A DNA stretch of 35,090 bases. Source: Chloroflexota bacterium (GTDB lineage: Bacteria; Chloroflexota; Anaerolineae; J102). The position numbers and the translations under genes were made by a program. The notes beneath the pieces are model-generated. The model was not told where the DNA came from. It did not search any database and saw only the letters and a list, made by a program, of their open reading frames with translations. Positions within the stretch are counted from its first letter, which is position 1, and every line of letters begins with the position of its first letter. The stretch is taken from assembly GCA_013151415.1 (NCBI GenBank), contig JAADII010000112.1:1-35090 (forward strand). Direction: 5' to 3'. Below, one piece after another: positions 16,868 to 35,090 of the stretch.

Positions 16868-18679
16868 CTATCCATGCCAGATTATCCCCAGCCAGGTTTT
16901 GTAAGGCGTGGGGGTTGCGGTCGGGGTGGGTGTGAGGGTGGGCGTGGAGGTCGAGGGCTCCAAGTAGATGTCAGTCAGATAAAGGGCCGCCGCGACTTGA
17001 TTCCATTCAAGAGTTGTTTCATCCACCGCGACGCTTTGTTCGCTGACTAGAGCGGTCACCACATAGCCGCGAGGTGATTCGATGACCAAACGAAAGGTGT
17101 CGTAGACCCAGGGATGGATGATGAAGAAGTTCCAGAAGCCGTCCGCAGCCGTGGTTCTTGAGGCGATGAGCGTTCCGGGCGGGGTTTGGCCCTGATTATA
17201 GCCGAATAGCCTGAGCGTGACATCGGCTAACGCCGCATGGGTGAGATAGCCCTGACCCGCAGGCTCGCCCGACATGGGGCCAATCAAAGCATAGCCGCGA
17301 AAACGCCACACTTCAGGCGTGGGAGTGGGCGTGCTGGTGGGTTGGGGGGTCGGCGTGTTGGTGGGCTGAGGCGTGGGGGTGCTGGTGGGTTGTGAGGTGG
17401 GCGTGTTGGTGGGCCGAGAGGTGGGGGTGTTGGTGGGCTGTGAAGTGGGCGTGTTGGTGGCCGGCGGGGTGGGCGTGTTGGTGGCTGGTGGAGTGGGCGT
17501 GCTGGTGGCCGCGGCCGGGTAGATGAAGCTGATGCCGTCCTTGTCGTTTTGATGGAGCACGCGCTTCAATGTGGCGCTGCTGATGTAAGCATACATCACG
17601 GCCACCGATTCGGGATCATGGTCCAGCGCCAGCCAATGCCCAAATTCGTGCAGGGCTACGCTCTGCACATCCACTTCGCCCGATGAGGGGCTTCCGGTCG
17701 CATCCCAAAGATGATCGTCATCAAACCAAACATCGGCCTCCAAAATGGTGGAGTTTCTATACCAATAAATGGTTGTAGCCAGGGTGCTGCTCGTGCTTCC
17801 ATCGGAAATGAAGACGATTTCGTTGGCGCCGTTGTATCCATAGGTGGTGGCGCTCGTCGTTCCGCCATAGATGAAGCTGAAATCCGCGGTGGGCACGATA
17901 GTCCAGGTGTATGCGGCCGCGGTGATGGCGTTGAGAAAGTCGGCGGTGGACCCATTGCCCGCATTCGCTTGGATGGAAGTGGGGTTGACTCGATAGGTGA
18001 CCGAGTTTACAGGCCACTTGTGCCCGGTGTATACGAAATCTTGCGGCGATAGATAAGCGGGAATGGCCCATCGTCGCTCAGGCGCAGCCAACCATCCATT
18101 TTTCGCCGTCTGGCCATCGATCTCGCTCCAAACTCGGTGCAAGAGCGCGGTTGCGGCCTGCGCCGCGGCCGCGGGTTTTTCGGTCAATACATACGCGGCC
18201 CGTCCCCCATCCGCCAGCCGATAGACCTGTCCTCCGCTTCGGCGAAGGCGCGATGGATACTCATCCTCGCGGGTTTCGAGAAAGGCGAGAACCTCATCCC
18301 CCACTGCGAAAGACGCGCGATGCGTGGCCCTCATGCCCAATCCGTCGGGCAATTCGCCGCCCAACATGCGCACAATCACCGCGCCTTGCTCGATTTCGCC
18401 CAGGATGACCTCCTCGACCCGCAGCAAATAATCGGTCTCGATGAACGCGCGCGAGGGATCCCAGGCGCTTCTCTTCTCGAGCACCGTCCCCCGCACGATG
18501 GCGTCCGAGCCCGCGACCCAGCTCGAAAGCGGGTCGTCCATCTGCATGGACGAGCCGGCTCGCGCCGATTCGCGCCCATTCCATGCAAACAGCGAAAAGG
18601 TCAGCGTCGCCAAAAGCGCCAGCAATCCAACGCGTCGCATCATCCGGCCCGACTTCCCCAACGATGTGACGACGCTCAC
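16868..18679 (-). CDS. Secreted matrixin-type zinc metalloprotease with Thr-Pro linker and WRFRGY module
   Basis: A 603-residue exported protein. Basic residues plus a hydrophobic stretch (RRVGLLALLATLTFSLFAW) form a signal peptide. A pro-like N-terminal domain reaches about residue 190. The matrixin catalytic domain follows with the zinc motif HEFGHWLALDHD (about residues 342-353) and a Met-turn AVMYAY. Residues about 393-456 form a linker of eight 8-residue Thr-Pro units (24-base repeats at 17312-17503). A C-terminal module beginning VWRFRGY follows, then a second short Thr-Pro stretch and the tail WLGIIWHG. The GTG start at 18679 overlaps the upstream gene's TGA. The substrate is unknown; the module is shared with the protein at 33931. 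Confidence 0.9.
   Translation of the reverse strand: MSVVTSLGKSGRMMRRVGLLALLATLTFSLFAWNGRESARAGSSMQMDDPLSSWVAGSDAIVRGTVLEKRSAWDPSRAFIETDYLLRVEEVILGEIEQGAVIVRMLGGELPDGLGMRATHRASFAVGDEVLAFLETREDEYPSRLRRSGGQVYRLADGGRAAYVLTEKPAAAAQAATALLHRVWSEIDGQTAKNGWLAAPERRWAIPAYLSPQDFVYTGHKWPVNSVTYRVNPTSIQANAGNGSTADFLNAITAAAYTWTIVPTADFSFIYGGTTSATTYGYNGANEIVFISDGSTSSTLATTIYWYRNSTILEADVWFDDDHLWDATGSPSSGEVDVQSVALHEFGHWLALDHDPESVAVMYAYISSATLKRVLHQNDKDGISFIYPAAATSTPTPPATNTPTPPATNTPTSQPTNTPTSRPTNTPTSQPTSTPTPQPTNTPTPQPTSTPTPTPEVWRFRGYALIGPMSGEPAGQGYLTHAALADVTLRLFGYNQGQTPPGTLIASRTTAADGFWNFFIIHPWVYDTFRLVIESPRGYVVTALVSEQSVAVDETTLEWNQVAAALYLTDIYLEPSTSTPTLTPTPTATPTPYKTWLGIIWHG
17312..17503. repeat. 24-base coding minisatellite (Thr-Pro linker)
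   Basis: Eight degenerate copies of a 24-base unit, encoding xTPTxxxT octapeptides such as NTPTSQPT, in the linker of the metalloprotease. The units keep frame, so the copy number can change without a frameshift. Confidence 0.9.
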
Positions 18680-19150: not shown

Positions 19151-20941
19151 CTATGCATCAAGCATGCGTTCCAGATCGCTGATTTGCTCGGCGATGATAT
19201 CGAAACCGCCTTGCCAGAAGGCGCGCTGATGGATGTCGACACCCGCGGCGGCCAAAATGCGGGCCGGCGCGTCCGAGCCGCCTGCGCGCAGAATATCGAG
19301 ATAGCGCGCCTTGAACGCCTCGCCCTCTTCTCGATATTGTCGATACAGAGCCAGCACCAATAACTGGCCAAACGCGTAGGCGTAGACATAAAATGGCGTG
19401 TGATAGATGTGGGGAATCGACACCCACTCCCAACGGAATTCCTCACTGAGATCGATGGCGTCGCCGAATTGCTCTTGCAGATTTTCCATATAGGCCGCGG
19501 CCAGCTCATCGGTTGTCGCGCCCTGGTGGACCATCTCGTGCGCGGTGCGCTCGAACAGGGCGAAGAACACCTGACGCATGATAGTGGCGTAGGCGTCGTC
19601 CACCTGGCGGAAGAGCATGTCTCGGCGCACGTCTTCGTCCTCTTCTTGGGATAGAAGTCGGTCGATGAGCAACATCTCGCCAAAAGTGGACGCGGTTTCG
19701 GCCAGGGGGAGCGAGGCGTGAAAGGTGAAGATGCTGTGATGCGACGCGAACATGCCGTGCACCGCGTGGCCCAATTCATGGGCCAGAGTCGAGATGTCGG
19801 CCGCGCGGCCCTGGTAATTGGTCAGCACCCAAGGCGTCAATTTCGGGGTCGCGCTCCAACAAAACGCGCCGCTGCGTTTGCCTTTGCGCACCTCCGCGTC
19901 CAGGTGGTTTTCGGCGAATACGCGTTCGGCCAGTTGCGCCATCTCCGCGTCGAATTCCTGAAAGGCGTCCAACACCATGTTCGCGGCCGCGGCGAAGTCG
20001 TAGCGCTTGTCGGCTTTGCTTACAGGCGCGTAAATGTCGTAGCGTCGTAGCCGCTCCATGCCGAGAACCCGGGCTTTCAGGCGGAAGTAACGCTGAAACA
20101 GCGGGGCGTTTTCTCGCGTGACGTCCAACAGCAAATCAACCACTTCATCAGGGATGTCGTTGCGCAGGTTGCGCGCGGCGATGGGCGTGTCGAAATGGCG
20201 TAAATTCACCTGCTCGTTGCGCCAATCGCGCACAAGAAACTGGTAGATCTGGCCAAGAATGGGGCCGTCATGGCCATATACTTGATAAAGGGTTTGGTAA
20301 GCGCGCGCTCGCAGATCGGGATCGGGGCTGCGCACATGTTGCATAACTTCCCCGCGCGTCAATTCTTTTTTCTCTCCATCAACCTCCAGCTCGAACACAT
20401 AGCGATTGGTGATGGTTTCATAAAGATTCACAAGCGCGGCCGAGCCGGTCACATCCTTGATGTTGATGATCTTTTCTTCGGCCTCCGAGAGCGTGTGCGG
20501 CTTGAAATGACGCATTTCTTCAAGCCAATAACGGTAGTCACCCATTTCGGCCATGAGGCGAGCCGCGTTCTCATCATCCAGCGCCTTCCACCACAGATTG
20601 AAAAAGAGCGTTCGGTTGGTGAGATCGGCTATCATCTGCTGCACGCGGCCGTACAGGCTTTGCGCATCCTGATTTTGCGTGTCTTCGCTAAACCACAGGC
20701 TCGCGAAGCCGAAGACGCGGTAGGCCAACTGGCTAATGGCTTCCATCTGCCCGATGATATCGAGAAGGGCTTCGGGTGTGATATGGTCGGATAATTGCTC
20801 GCGAACCGCCTCGAATTCGGTGACCTGTTCGTCCAATTGTTTGAGCGCGGCCTGGAACTCGGCGCTATCTGCTCCGGGAAACAAGTCGTCAAGGCTCCAG
20901 CGCGGCGGCTGAGAGGGAATGTTGAAGTGTGTGGAGATCAT
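19151..20941 (-). CDS. pepF: Oligoendopeptidase F (M3 family)
   Basis: A 596-residue cytoplasmic M3B zinc peptidase that cuts medium-size oligopeptides. The HExxH motif is at residues 388-392 in TLAHELGHAVHG, with the third zinc ligand Glu in LPLAETASTF about 25 residues on. The N-terminal M3 helical region (WSLDDLF...FAS, LRNDIPDEVVDLLL) and the C-terminal signature HIYHTPFYVYAYAFGQLL are typical of PepF. It is about the usual length (roughly 600 residues) with no break. It lies 103 bases upstream of the pterin-synthase-like gene and may share a transcript. The start has no strong ribosome binding site. Confidence 0.94.
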   Translation of the reverse strand: MISTHFNIPSQPPRWSLDDLFPGADSAEFQAALKQLDEQVTEFEAVREQLSDHITPEALLDIIGQMEAISQLAYRVFGFASLWFSEDTQNQDAQSLYGRVQQMIADLTNRTLFFNLWWKALDDENAARLMAEMGDYRYWLEEMRHFKPHTLSEAEEKIINIKDVTGSAALVNLYETITNRYVFELEVDGEKKELTRGEVMQHVRSPDPDLRARAYQTLYQVYGHDGPILGQIYQFLVRDWRNEQVNLRHFDTPIAARNLRNDIPDEVVDLLLDVTRENAPLFQRYFRLKARVLGMERLRRYDIYAPVSKADKRYDFAAAANMVLDAFQEFDAEMAQLAERVFAENHLDAEVRKGKRSGAFCWSATPKLTPWVLTNYQGRAADISTLAHELGHAVHGMFASHHSIFTFHASLPLAETASTFGEMLLIDRLLSQEEDEDVRRDMLFRQVDDAYATIMRQVFFALFERTAHEMVHQGATTDELAAAYMENLQEQFGDAIDLSEEFRWEWVSIPHIYHTPFYVYAYAFGQLLVLALYRQYREEGEAFKARYLDILRAGGSDAPARILAAAGVDIHQRAFWQGGFDIIAEQISDLERMLDA

Positions 20942-21156
20942 GGGGATTGCTTCGAAAAAATAGATCGCGGATTTTACAGATTAGTGCGCTTCGACAATAA
21001 ACGCTGGGCGATAAGGAAATGGGTTGGCGGGTTCCGTTGCCCTACTCGTCCCATCGTTCTTGTCAATCCATCGTCGCCGCGACCGAGCGCGCGGCGGTGA
21101 TGGACATGCAAACATACCACGGCCCAGGCTTGCTGCGCAAGATGGGCGGCTTCGTG

Positions 21157-21162
21157 TATAAT
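21157..21162 (+). promoter_or_regulatory. Candidate -10 box upstream of the M16C peptidase
   Basis: TATAAT preceded by TTCGTG; no good -35 was found at 16-18 bases. Transcription from here would include the heptamer inverted repeat in the leader. The 386-base gap 20942-21327 holds this box and the repeat; the rest shows nothing I can name. Confidence 0.3.
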
Positions 21163-21180
21163 TCAGATTGGATGTCTTGG

Positions 21181-21292
21181 ATGCCGGATACTAGATATCT
21201 AGATACTGGATACTGGGTATTGGGTGTTCTGATTACAGAGCCGCGTTTGACTACCCAATATCCAATACCCAGTATCCAATAACCAAACACCA
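21181..21292. repeat. Intergenic inverted repeat of heptamer units
   Basis: The arms GGATACTGGGTATTGG (21208-21223) and CCAATACCCAGTATCC (21262-21277) pair perfectly over 16 bp, with weaker pairing on both sides. Each arm is a run of degenerate seven-base units: left GGATACT-like, right YCCARTA-like (four in a row, then ACCAAAC and ACCAAAT). It is non-coding and lies just before the peptidase start. It resembles the short tandem heptamer repeats known in cyanobacteria. Confidence 0.75.
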
Positions 21293-21327
21293 AATCACGA
21301 TATATATTTCCCTTCAAGGAGCCCTTC

Positions 21328-24228
21328 ATGACCGACATTCACGGTTTCGAGCTTGTTCGCGAGATGGATATACCCGAACTGAACACTCGCGCTCGGCTTT
21401 TTCGGCATGCAAAGAGCGGCGCAGAGCTCTTGTCGCTGGAAAACGACGATGAAAACAAGGTCTTTGGCGTCGCCTTTCGCACCCCGCCCACCGATTCCAC
21501 CGGCGTTGCTCACATTTTAGAACATGTTGTGCTGGCCGGTTCGCGCAAATATCCTGTCAAAGAACCTTTCATCGAGCTGATCAAAGGTTCGCTCAAAACC
21601 TTTTTGAACGCGTTCACCTATCCCGACCGCACGGTCTATCCCGTGGCCAGCCAAAACTTGCAGGATTTCTACAATCTCATCGATGTCTATTTGGATGCGG
21701 TGTTTCATCCCTTGCTTTCGCCGCACACCTTCGCGCAAGAAGGATGGCATTATGAGGTTGAGCGGAAAAATGGTCAAGCGCTCAGCTACAAGGGCGTGGT
21801 GTTTAATGAAATGAAAGGCGCATTCGCCGACCCTGACGATCGTCTCGACGATGTGGTGCGGCGCCACCTTTTTCCCGACACCACCTACGGCCTGGAATCG
21901 GGCGGCGATCCGCGTCGCATCCCCGAACTGACCTACGAACAGTTCCTCGATTTCCATCGCCGTTATTATCATCCTTCCAACGCGCTGATCTATTTCTACG
22001 GCGATGATCCGCCCGAAGAGCGCTTGCGGCTGATGAATGAGTGGCTGAGCGAATTCGATCGGCGCGATGTGGAGGTGAAGATTGATGTGCAGCCTCGTTT
22101 TGCTCAACCTCGTCGCGAAGAAGAGGCCTACATCGCGGGCGATGACGCCAAAGCCTACCTCACGGTCAATTGGTCTTTGGCTGCGGACCCCGATCCCGAA
22201 CTCCTGTTAAGTCTGGCCATCCTCACCCACATTCTCATTGGCGATCCCGCGTCGCCTTTGCGCAAGGCGCTCATCGAATCGGGTTTGGGTGAAGACCTGG
22301 CCGGAGTGGGGTTGATGCCGGAGCTGCGTCAGGTCTATTTCTCCACCGGTCTCAAGGGCGTGGACCCGGCCCACGCAGACGCGGTCGAACGCCTGATCCT
22401 GGATACATTGGAGCATCTGGCCGCAGAGGGCGTCGAGCAAAGCGCGATTGAGTCGGCCATGAACACCATCGAGTTTCGGCTGCGCGAACAAAACACGGGC
22501 GGCATCCCGCGCGGGCTGGCTCTCATGTTGGCCGCGCTCGCGGCCTGGACATATGGTCGCGATCCCATGGAGGTCATTGCTTTTGAGCAGCCTTTAAGCC
22601 GCATCAAAAAACGTCTGGCTCGCGGGGAGCATTATTTCGAGGACTTGATCCGCCGCTATTTTCTGGAAAATCCTCATCGCGTCACGTTGCTTTTTCGGCC
22701 CGACCCCGATTTGCAGAAACGTTGGAACGAGGAGGAGGCCAGGCGTCTGGACGCGATTCGCTCGGCCATGAGTCCAGACGACTTGAAAGCGGTCATCGAG
22801 GAGATGGAAACGCTGCATCGGCTTCAAGAGACGCCCGACGACCCTCAAGCTTTGGCCGCGATCCCTCGCCTAAAGCTAGAAGACCTGGAGCGCGAGAACA
22901 AAATCATCCCCCTGGTCGAATTGTCGCTGAACGGAGGCCGCGCGCTTTATCATGATCTTTTCACCAACGGCATCCTCTATCTCGACGTGGGCATGGACCT
23001 GCGCGGCGTCGAGCAAGAATTGCTACCTTTCGTCCCCCTGTTCGGCCGGGCGTTGCTGGAAATGGGAACCGAAGACGAAGATTATGTGCAGCTCTCGCGG
23101 CGCATTGGCAGCAAGACGGGCGGCATCCGCGACGATCTCTACATCTCCAGCCGATTGGCCAGTCCTGAGCCGCTGTCCTGGCTCTTTTTACGCGGCAAGG
23201 CCACAGTCGAACGCGCCCAAGACTTGTTAGACATTCTCCATGATATCTTGCACAAAGCCCGCTTCGATGACCAGGAGCGTTTTCGTCAGATAGTGCTCGA
23301 AGAAAAAGCCGCTCAAGAGGCCCAACTCGCGCCCGCCGGATACATGGTCGTGCACGGCAGGTTGGCCGCTCATTTCCACATCGCTGGTTGGCTGACCGAG
23401 CAAATGAGCGGAGTGGATTATCTATTCTTCTTGCGAAACTTGAGCGAGCAAGTGAAGAAGGACTGGCCTTCTGTGCTTCAGGTTTTGGAAACGCTGCGCG
23501 AACGGCTCATCCAGCGCCCTTCCATGCTTTGGAATGTGACGCTGGATGAAGCGAATTGGGCGGGTGTCGAACCTCGTCTCGCCGCGTTCATTGGGGCTTT
23601 GCCCGCATCACCGGTTCCGCCGGCCTCCTGGTCTCCCACCGCTCTCCCACCCCACGAGGGGCTCGCCATCCCCGTGCAGGTGAACTATGTGGGCAAAGGC
23701 GCGAATCTCTATGACTTGGGTTACCGGCTGCACGGCTCCATTCATGTGATCAACCGTTTCCTGGCCACCACCTGGCTATGGGAGCGGGTGCGCATGAAGG
23801 GCGGCGCGTACAGCGGCTTTTCCCTCTTCGATCAGCGCACCGGCTTATTCGACTTCCTTTCTTATAGAGACCCTCATCTGAAAAAGACGTTGGAGATCTA
23901 CGACCAGACTGCTCGCTTCCTGCGCGAGGTCGATCTCAGCGAGGATGAGCTGACCAAGAGCATCATTGGCACCATCGGCGCGATGGACGCTTACCTTTTG
24001 CCCGACGCCAAAGGTTGGATATCGATGCAGCGCTGGCTGACAGGCGAAAGCGACGCGTTTCGACAACGCCTTCGCGAAGAGGTGTTGGGCGCCACCAAGG
24101 CCGACTTTCGCGCCTTCGCGGATGTGCTCGAGCGCGTGCGCGAAGCCGGGCATGTGGTGGCCATGGGGCCACAACCGCGATTGGCCGCTCTGAAATCGCC
24201 GGCCCTGGCGCTGCTCAAGGTGCTCTGA
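21328..24228 (+). CDS. M16C zinc peptidase (presequence-protease-like)
   Basis: A 966-residue pitrilysin-family peptidase of the PreP/Cym1 type, which degrades free peptides inside a closed chamber. The inverted zinc motif HxxEH is at residues 62-66 (VAHILEHVVLAGS) and the distal Glu is Glu161 in VVFNEMKGAF. LKTFLNAFTYPDRTVYPV and the C-terminal half (RMKGGAYSGFSLFD, then SYRDPHL) are typical of the M16C-associated domain. AAGGAG lies six bases before the ATG. The length matches the family (about 970). The C-terminal half normally lacks catalytic residues, as here. It is followed by a weak terminator and the ATP synthase operon. Confidence 0.94.
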   Translation: MTDIHGFELVREMDIPELNTRARLFRHAKSGAELLSLENDDENKVFGVAFRTPPTDSTGVAHILEHVVLAGSRKYPVKEPFIELIKGSLKTFLNAFTYPDRTVYPVASQNLQDFYNLIDVYLDAVFHPLLSPHTFAQEGWHYEVERKNGQALSYKGVVFNEMKGAFADPDDRLDDVVRRHLFPDTTYGLESGGDPRRIPELTYEQFLDFHRRYYHPSNALIYFYGDDPPEERLRLMNEWLSEFDRRDVEVKIDVQPRFAQPRREEEAYIAGDDAKAYLTVNWSLAADPDPELLLSLAILTHILIGDPASPLRKALIESGLGEDLAGVGLMPELRQVYFSTGLKGVDPAHADAVERLILDTLEHLAAEGVEQSAIESAMNTIEFRLREQNTGGIPRGLALMLAALAAWTYGRDPMEVIAFEQPLSRIKKRLARGEHYFEDLIRRYFLENPHRVTLLFRPDPDLQKRWNEEEARRLDAIRSAMSPDDLKAVIEEMETLHRLQETPDDPQALAAIPRLKLEDLERENKIIPLVELSLNGGRALYHDLFTNGILYLDVGMDLRGVEQELLPFVPLFGRALLEMGTEDEDYVQLSRRIGSKTGGIRDDLYISSRLASPEPLSWLFLRGKATVERAQDLLDILHDILHKARFDDQERFRQIVLEEKAAQEAQLAPAGYMVVHGRLAAHFHIAGWLTEQMSGVDYLFFLRNLSEQVKKDWPSVLQVLETLRERLIQRPSMLWNVTLDEANWAGVEPRLAAFIGALPASPVPPASWSPTALPPHEGLAIPVQVNYVGKGANLYDLGYRLHGSIHVINRFLATTWLWERVRMKGGAYSGFSLFDQRTGLFDFLSYRDPHLKKTLEIYDQTARFLREVDLSEDELTKSIIGTIGAMDAYLLPDAKGWISMQRWLTGESDAFRQRLREEVLGATKADFRAFADVLERVREAGHVVAMGPQPRLAALKSPALALLKVL

Positions 24229-32058: not shown

Positions 32059-32134
32059 GGATGATGGGATGATAAGATGGTGAGACGATGAAAAAAGAGC
32101 ATCGTCCTGTCGTCCCATCGTCTTATCGTCCATC
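32059..32134. repeat. Intergenic inverted repeat of octamer units (copy 2)
   Basis: Left arm units such as GGATGATG, GGATGATA and AGATGGTG face right-arm CGTCCCAT, CGTCTTAT and CGTCCATC. Most mismatches are T opposite G, so the stem holds in plus-strand RNA. It shares its word pattern with 4525-4602. It sits in the mreB leader. Confidence 0.65.
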
Positions 32135-33930: not shown

Positions 33931-35090
33931 TCATTGGTGAAGGGGGAGCGGAAGATAGAAGGGGGCCTGGCTTAACCCAGGATTCGCGTTGATGTTGTGC
34001 TTGCGGAGGGCGAGCGGAAGGAAGAGTGGCGTTTCGCCTACGGGATAGAGGCCGAAGTCCACTCGAATGCTGGCTTGAGCGGCTCTTGTGTCAATGGGAA
34101 CCATCGAGGCCGTGGTGGGGAGGTAGTCTCCAGCCGTAATGGATACATAGAGGGCATAGGCGCCGTCGGGGATTTCGTCGAAACGATAGTAACCGCTTTC
34201 ATCGCTGATGACGCTCCAGGTGCGTTGTTGTCCCGGAGGCGCGTTCTGTTCCATAAGGGTGAGTTCGATGCCGGAAAGATGCGGCTCCGCTTCGTCGTGC
34301 AGACCATTCGCGTTCATGTCTTGCCAGGTGAACCCCTCCAGCGCGGGCGACGGCGTAGGCGTGGGCGTTGGGGTGGGCCAATCCATGTAGATCATGTTCC
34401 AATGCACGCGCTGCTCCGGTTGCGCCCATTCGATGGCGTTGTCGTCCACCACGACGCCGGTTTCGGTCTCTATGGCGCTGACCACAAATCCGGCCGGGAC
34501 TTGCACTTCAAGACGCATGATGTCGCGCACCCAGGGCTTGAGGATGTAAAGATTGAAGAAGCCGCTGCCATCGCTGACGCGCGTTTGAATGAGATCGCCG
34601 GGAGGCGGCTCGCCCTCATCACGCCCGAAGATTTGCAAAACGACGCCGGGAGCCGCTGTGTTGGCGGAAGGCTGTCCCTGTAGAGTATAGCCGCGGAAAC
34701 GCCAAACCAGAGGCGTGGATGTAGGGGTGGGCGTCGGCGTTTTGCTGGGGGTCGCGGTTGGCGTTTTTGTGGGGGTGCGAGTGGGGGTGCGAGTGAGGGT
34801 GGGCGTCGCGGTTGCGGTCGAAGTGGGCGTGGAAGTGGGCGATGGCGTATTGGTGGGTGTGGACGTAGCAACGCCGGTGGCAATGGCCGTCGGCGTAGGT
34901 GTAGGGGTGTTGGTCGGCGTGGGAGTGGGTGTGGGTGTGTTGGTCGGCGTGGGGGTGGGTGTAGGGGTGTTGGTCGGCGTGGGAGTGGGCGTAGGGGTGT
35001 TGGTCGGCGTGGGCGTGGGTGTGGGCGTGTTGGTCGGCGTGGGGGTGGGTGTGGGCGTGTTAGTCGGCGTGGGAGTGGGCGTAGGGGTGT
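33931..35090 (-). CDS. C-terminal part of a large secreted Thr-Pro repeat protein (SdrD-B-like), cut by window end
   Basis: The frame is open from the window edge to 33931, so the N-terminus is missing. From the edge it encodes a Thr-Pro array ([10 protein letters not shown] units) to about 34720, then [11 protein letters not shown], a module of about 110 residues shared with the matrixin-type protease, then a short Thr-Pro stretch, then an SdrD-B-like domain ([35 protein letters not shown]), and the tail with FLPLALR and YLPLPL, a motif frequent at the C-terminus of Chloroflexota surface proteins. The role is unknown; it may be a surface or cell-wall-associated protein. A strong terminator follows. 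Confidence 0.82.
34904..35090. repeat. 30-base coding minisatellite in the Thr-Pro repeat protein
   Basis: Six full copies and part of a seventh of a 30-base unit with the core GTGTTGGTCGGCGTGGG, encoding ten residues of Thr-Pro plus one Asn per unit on the minus strand. It continues past the window end. Confidence 0.92.

Follow-up and report, generated by a model that had tools for sequence, protein, structure and literature searches.

Cyanobacterial STRR sequences, known from heterocystous species such as Calothrix, are dispersed tandem heptanucleotides that form direct arrays. REP and REPIN sequences, which go with RAYT transposases, are small dispersed intergenic palindromes not known to contain tandem units. 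In the foldback (FB) transposons of eukaryotes a variable loop is flanked by two long inverted arms, unequal in length and composed of short tandem repeats, and the target is duplicated. A further heptamer, TAACTGA, is dispersed in Beggiatoaceae and cyanobacteria, mostly in intergenic regions and close upstream of start codons; the available part of that report counts 169 direct sets and one indirect repeat, most of them in one orientation to the gene (MacGregor 2015, PMC4679880). The GGGAATC (GGGNATC) heptamers of Xanthomonas and Nostoc are imperfect 7-bp tandem units, also mostly intergenic; inverted pairs in convergent orientation number 70 in one Xanthomonas and 75 in another (Rehm et al. 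2015, PMC4692102). In the available portion of the latter report these repeats lie on average 28 nt from the 5' neighbouring ORF and 160 nt from the other, are linked to G-quadruplexes and are generally not found with mobile elements, and genomic stability is described as increased near them (PMC4692102).

The element considered here lies in a 35,090-nucleotide stretch of Chloroflexota DNA (the window), in the leader of a peptidase gene, and consists of the following parts and neighbours:

21178 to 21225, minus strand: left arm of TGGATAC/TATTGGG-like heptamers (YCCARTA units on the minus strand), with a degenerate outer end; period 7 by TRF
21204 to 21224: exact units of the left arm
21207 to 21223, plus strand: 5' side of the perfect stem (17 bp)
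21226 to 21251, no strand: core (loop) of 26 nt, which has only heptamer remnants in common with the cores of other copies
21252 to 21291, plus strand: right arm of YCCARTA (TACCCAA-like) heptamers grading into AACCAAACACC, detected by TRF
21254 to 21281: exact units of the right arm
21262 to 21278, plus strand: 3' side of the perfect stem (17 bp)
21157 to 21162, plus strand: TATAAT, the likely -10 box of the M16C gene and a putative promoter element, upstream of the array
21316 to 21321, plus strand: AAGGAG, the likely ribosome-binding site judged by its sequence, downstream of the array
21328 to 24228, plus strand: M16C/PreP-type peptidase gene with the element in its leader (Pfam M16C_assoc, E 1.6e-66; PreP_C, 2.3e-55)
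19151 to 20941, minus strand: oligoendopeptidase F-type (M3) gene, the divergent neighbour (Pfam)

Period-7 arrays are detected by TRF at 21178-21216 and 21252-21286, and an inverted repeat of 25 nt with 88% complementarity joins 21204-21228 to 21257-21281. The RNA fold predicted for 21160-21310 has an energy of -47.5 kcal/mol (z -4.8), and none of 200 shuffles is as stable. The first-pass annotation had described heptamer units arranged as a hairpin, which the arrays, the inverted repeat and the fold confirm; its core stem is indeed perfect, and 17 bp are counted where it gave 16. The limits of the element are better given as about 21178-21291 than as 21181-21292. A perfect stem of this length is reached by none of 106 array-free intergenic segments of 112 nt taken from the sampled stretches (best, 15 bp), and among the copies of its own genome (G000) it stands at the top of the range, tied with locus L148. 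The 14-mer YCCARTAYCCARTA has 8 matches in the window at up to two mismatches, 5 of them exact and all five within the element of the M16C leader; shuffles of the window yield a mean of 0.86, and 0 of 100 reach 8. Rfam gives the element no family match, only two microRNA models far under their cut-offs, and a scan of 20900-21400 finds no intrinsic terminator. Elsewhere in the window, G-rich tandem repeats with periods of 24 to 90 bp (TRF) occupy 17319-17508 and 34826-35090, and the contig ends inside one of them.

The genome search proposed in the first-pass annotation shows that the array is not the single occurrence by which that annotation would have been refuted. In its own genome (4,520,785 bases, 4.52 Mb, 97.66% complete) YCCARTAYCCARTA has 251 matches (163 on one strand and 88 on the other) vs 0+0 for the reversed control, and among the matches listed these form at least 62 separate clusters. 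Counting this genome and 60 relatives, 27 of 61 have at least one match. The numbers run from 0 to 193 in the 19 other members of the family (G001, 193; G015, 186; G002, 148; G013, 112; G014, 69; G003, 54; the other 13, 0-33) and from 0 to 13 in 41 members of the class outside the family; within a single genus, g5, they range from 1 to 186. The array in the M16C leader is one copy of a dispersed repeat family and not a one-off regulatory hairpin. Like the STRR of Calothrix type, the family consists of dispersed heptamer arrays, but its sequence differs and STRR arrays are direct. The TAACTGA repeats are likewise dispersed intergenic heptamers, but in the accessible part of the report nearly all of them are direct (PMC4679880), whereas the arrays here are inverted.

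The arrangement of the copies was examined in 53 stretches of the own genome plus the window, all selected for carrying the repeat and drawn from the first 100 entries of each of two match lists (251 and 156 matches in all), with two clusters at contig ends (C68, C98) excluded. Genes were called with a simple home-made hexamer model, and an arm was defined as at least two exact units, giving 83 arms. Coding sequence makes up 84% of the total, yet only 5 of these arms lie mostly within called genes. In all 22 adjacent pairs from G000, to which the order count is confined (seven G002 stretches had been picked for having both arms and are excluded from it), the TATTGGR arm comes first and the YCCAATA arm second. 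A strict pattern for this order has 171 matches in 9 of 20 whole genomes, with both strands and overlaps included; the strict opposite order has 3 overlapping matches at one locus, in G013 only. The G-rich strand of each arm, read 5' to 3', points to the core, a convergent orientation. Many arms lie within 60 nt of a start or stop, and 63 of the 74 arms with genes on both sides are nearer to the outward gene (medians, 27.5 nt outward and 99 nt inward), which presents its start to 43 of the 74 and its stop to 31. By the strict unit 30 of the 74 are solo arms, several of which have a degenerate partner that the strict pattern overlooks.

Unit length and convergent inverted pairs (here 22 of 22) are common to this element and the GGGAATC repeats of Xanthomonas, the nearest case in the literature searched, and the distance rule is also alike, with reported averages of 28 vs 160 nt in the available portion of that report (PMC4692102) and medians of 27.5 vs 99 nt here (63 of 74 arms). 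The first-pass annotation had noted a likeness to heptanucleotide repeats and taken the inversion as a departure from them; the likeness holds, but the inversion is no departure, since the Xanthomonas pairs, as described in that portion, are themselves convergent and inverted (PMC4692102). The unit is not GGGNATC but TAYTGGR (sequence TATTGGR/YCCAATA), and the host belongs to the Chloroflexota. The three-tetrad quadruplex pattern of four GGG tracts occurs in 12 of 83 arms and is absent from the window copy. Four GG tracts are present in 65 of 83 arms, so that weaker, two-tetrad forms may occur. A GGG-quadruplex as the cause of the polarity was considered and rejected, given the 12 of 83; the pattern holds all the same, and also in families with few G runs.

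The placement in the leader of an M16C peptidase gene, claimed from the start, agrees with the Pfam matches. The 80 relatives of the protein retained from named genomes, among the matches listed, include 55 with Chloroflexota-type names, and the top matches are from Anaerolineae, which is most likely also the group of origin of the window. The array is flanked upstream by the likely -10 box and downstream by the likely ribosome-binding site; in the predicted fold the latter is outside the main stem and partly within a weak 4-bp hairpin of its own. A sigma-70 scan of 20900-21400, which requires a -35 hexamer as well, calls no promoter. A search for the start motif located the gene at 17 loci of the family, 16 of them with 200 nt of leader sequence, and an array of TATTGGR/YCCAATA units within these 200 nt is found in 0 of 16; G002 has one single heptamer there and carries an array copy just downstream of its M16C gene rather than in the leader. 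An exact TATAAT within 200 nt of the start is present in 13 of the 16 orthologs, a count made without a shuffle control, and its distance to the ATG is 31-53 nt in 11 of them and 108 and 113 nt in the other two, vs 165 nt here. The leader is thus longer by about 50-60 nt than those of the two long-leader relatives and by 110-135 nt than those of the other 11. In this comparison of gaps between relatives, which had also been suggested at first pass, the element looks like an insertion. The leader position is one among many gene-junction positions and not a property of M16C genes.

Other junctions give a similar picture. At the junction of PGK (like Obg, recognised by eye) with the next gene, readable in 12 of 16 loci found by start-motif search, the spacer is by eye almost nil in 7 relatives; CCAATA arrays are present in G000 and G001, a different inverted octamer element in G015 and other sequence in three more. 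The Obg leader, readable in 11 of 17 loci, contains an array in G000 and in none of the 11 readable relatives. For a 7-kb stretch of G014 the counterparts in eight species of the genus were searched, and at most five could be read per junction. At one junction the site is empty in G019, inverted CGTAAAA/TTTGACG arrays are present in G009, G017 has a CGTAAAA arm alone, G004 an octamer element, and G014 itself another element together with ACTGATT units. At the site of the G014 CCAATA array, G019 and G018 have none, G017 carries inverted GATTAAA/TTTAATC directly after a stop codon and G004 carries GCGTAAT/ATTACGC. Sister species have other inverted heptamer families, or none, at some junctions. 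Empty sites are seen for M16C, PGK, Obg and one g5 junction, in relatives that belong to other species or genera and in which the exact ends of an insertion are not visible. Orthologous sites without an array, and single junctions occupied by different families, contrast with the increased genomic stability near repeats reported in the available part of the Xanthomonas work (PMC4692102).

Several other repeats accompany these arrays. Tandem units of CATCGTCC/TATCGTCC at 32100-32131 of the window belong to a second dispersed heptamer-like family, whose CCATCGTCCATCGTC has 36 matches in G000 and up to 169 in a relative; in that search the reversed CATCGTC control has 43+3 matches in G005. Among the matches listed, close pairs of this second family show by eye a GACGATGG arm followed by a CCATCGTC arm. 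In genus g5, three loci (L300, L301, L282) contain an element of about 200 bp by eye, MITE-like in appearance, with GGCATGGTTCA/TGAACCATGCC ends, a conserved core and CCAATA arms inside; because these arrays lie inside a longer GGCATGGTTCA-ended element, arrays can travel within other elements. CCAATA arrays at loci L200 and L289 of G014 appear to have received an insertion of an element that has CACTGCAAAAAGG-like ends and octamer arms (CACGGAGGCACAGAG) in inverted order. Elements with GTAACTACTAAGG-like ends occur at L283 (3384-3643, G014) and at L312 (G004), and the one from G014 matches G012 many times.

If the hairpin were maintained, arms of the same locus should pair better than arms of different loci. 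In 29 loci of G000 the longest exact arm match averages 11.7 for the same locus vs 12.9 across loci (9906 of 10000 permutations at least as high as observed), and RNA duplex energies agree (-38.2 vs -40.4 kcal/mol; 9527 of 10000 as stable or more). In 10 loci of G002 the values are 13.6 and 12.8 (1717 of 10000), i.e., no clear difference. There is no sign of hairpin maintenance, because pairing within a locus is no better than pairing between loci, and conservation of the hairpin by co-variation of its arms was rejected on the same ground. The worse-than-random matching in G000 may reflect the instability of perfect palindromes or loss during assembly. In 73 cores from five genomes (median, 28 nt) heptamer remnants are the only enriched common motif. 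Core pairs scoring 12 or more number 24 vs 0.2 in shuffles, and L134/L151 and L121/L125 are clearly alike. The flanks of G000 arms give 23 alike pairs at E<0.01 vs 0 in the shuffle, many of them by eye adjacent CATCGTCC repeats; one pair, L123/L133, is alike over 79 nt that such repeats do not account for. No general shared body or terminal inverted repeat is found outside the arms in G000. Possible target-site duplications measure 4.7 nt at the own locus vs 4.9 nt in cross-locus pairs, without excess, and the ends of the elements are fuzzy. The inverted arms are common to this element and the foldback transposons, which are eukaryotic, but no target-duplication signal is found here.

Period 7 and the polarity of the arms extend beyond the CCAATA family. 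With a detector of arrays of period 5-12, run on loci fetched for their genes and not for arrays, 7 is the commonest noncoding period, with 11 of 17 arrays in one set and 22 of 32 in the other; one of the sets (set B) consists of genes that neighbour arrays in G000, and a block shuffle, one per set, gives zero period-7 arrays. In 46 inverted arms of CCAATA type the 5' arm has more G than C throughout and is purine-rich in 37, pyrimidine-rich in 3 and even in 6. In 28 arms of other families the 5' arm is purine-rich in 26 and pyrimidine-rich in 1, with G above C in 22 and C above G in 5; three of these 28 have period 10, two (L143 and L151) resemble degenerate CCAATA arms, and L302 and L310 represent a single locus. 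Arms in coding sequence were left in this count and 10 near-identical arms were dropped. Simple insertion does not explain a purine-rich 5' arm across unrelated families; selection may. The polarity fits equally well with selection (purine-rich after stops, pyrimidine-rich before starts) and with extension of two broken ends, and since the element is symmetric, gene orientation cannot separate selection on the mRNA from extension at a break.

The explanation we favour, held somewhat above even probability, is that the element is one of the dispersed copies of a non-coding repeat of foldback type, which has inserted many times into permissive gene junctions. Such a repeat would have a short unconserved core enclosed by two arms in inverted order, each a tandem array of imperfect 7-bp units, and would spread into those gene junctions of this Anaerolineae genome where insertion is tolerated; slippage would then make arm length and unit variants drift. 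The present copy would have inserted downstream of the likely -10 box and upstream of the ribosome-binding site, probably forming a hairpin in a transcribed 5' untranslated region, and an effect on expression, if any, would be a by-product that does not account for its presence. The dispersal, the fixed polarity, the placement at junctions and the absence from the orthologs read are observed directly; insertion as an event, slippage and transcription of the hairpin are what we infer from them. No mobiliser is found. Like REP/REPIN sequences the repeat is small, dispersed and intergenic, but it has tandem units, and the Y1 (IS200-like) transposase family PF01797 has 0 matches in G000, which is 97.66% complete. 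A RAYT/Y1 transposase was accordingly rejected as the mobiliser, as G000 has no match and copy number shows by eye no obvious relation to it across genomes.

It is unlikely that the hairpin is instead a functional RNA leader that would control translation or stability of the M16C transcript, as similar hairpins would for other genes. The strong predicted fold, the position in the stretch from the likely -10 box to the ribosome-binding site and the many arms within 60 nt of a start or stop are what such a leader would show, and selection on mRNA could also yield the purine-after-stop, pyrimidine-before-start polarity; but all 16 readable M16C leaders of relatives are free of arrays, same-locus arms are not more complementary (in the 29 G000 loci less so, with concordant duplex energies), the arrays adjoin unrelated genes and no described RNA family is matched. 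We give a similarly small chance to extension of break ends, in which each arm would be repeat DNA added to the 3' end on one side of the break, either as a copy of arrays already present or by an end-extending polymerase, and the core would be the filler with which the two ends were joined. Arms whose G-rich strands both run 5' to 3' toward the core would follow from this, as would the purine-rich 5' arm in 26 of 27 informative arms of other families, arms of one locus that look independent, mostly unrelated cores and the solo arms (30 of 74 by the strict unit); yet neither an enzyme nor an RNA template is identified, several solo arms have a degenerate partner outside the strict pattern, and alike cores occur in genus g5 and in a few pairs from G000, L134/L151 among them.

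Growth in place, in which replication slippage would enlarge heptamer arrays from chance seeds without any mobile step, appears slightly less probable still. Heptamers are reported, in the available part of one survey, as the commonest class of longer simple repeats in most of the genomes covered (PMC4679880), and period 7 prevails in noncoding sequence here (22 of 32 and 11 of 17); however, at least 62 clusters of a single genome share the same heptamer, and at sites of arrays several relatives have hardly any spacer from which one could have been seeded. A MITE of the usual kind, mobilised by a DDE transposase and recognised here only in its inner part, is about as doubtful: several g5 copies do lie inside a conserved element that has a shared core and the ends GGCATGGTTCA...TGAACCATGCC, but no general conserved body surrounds the G000 arms, and the g5 element may merely contain or have captured arrays. 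An improbable but more inclusive proposal is that inverted short-unit arrays of many unrelated sequences form one class made by one process in these bacteria, in which the two ends of a broken gene junction would be extended in purine-rich steps of 7 nt (sometimes 8 nt), with arrays at other sites or a template as the source of the copy, and then joined. If true, this would account for the unit length that prevails, the purine-rich 5' arm and the independence of the arms, as well as the unrelated cores and the different families at one orthologous junction.

In the literature searched, bacterial foldback elements and heptamers in Chloroflexi or Anaerolineae return nothing that fits, and the exact heptamer strings lead only to a yeast mismatch-repair study (heptanucleotide repeats) and an immunology paper. 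The kind of repeat is known, while this sequence family, the polarity across families and the switching of families are not found in the literature searched. Inverted heptamer arrays at gene junctions are not a peculiarity of Xanthomonas and are not bound to GGG-type quadruplex sequences. The interesting aspects are the polarity across unrelated families and the family switching at the same junction in sister species, and the origin of heptamer repeats, including why the unit has seven bases, becomes directly testable in closely related strains. Within one Chloroflexota family, the same architecture and the same purine polarity recur with many unrelated heptamers.
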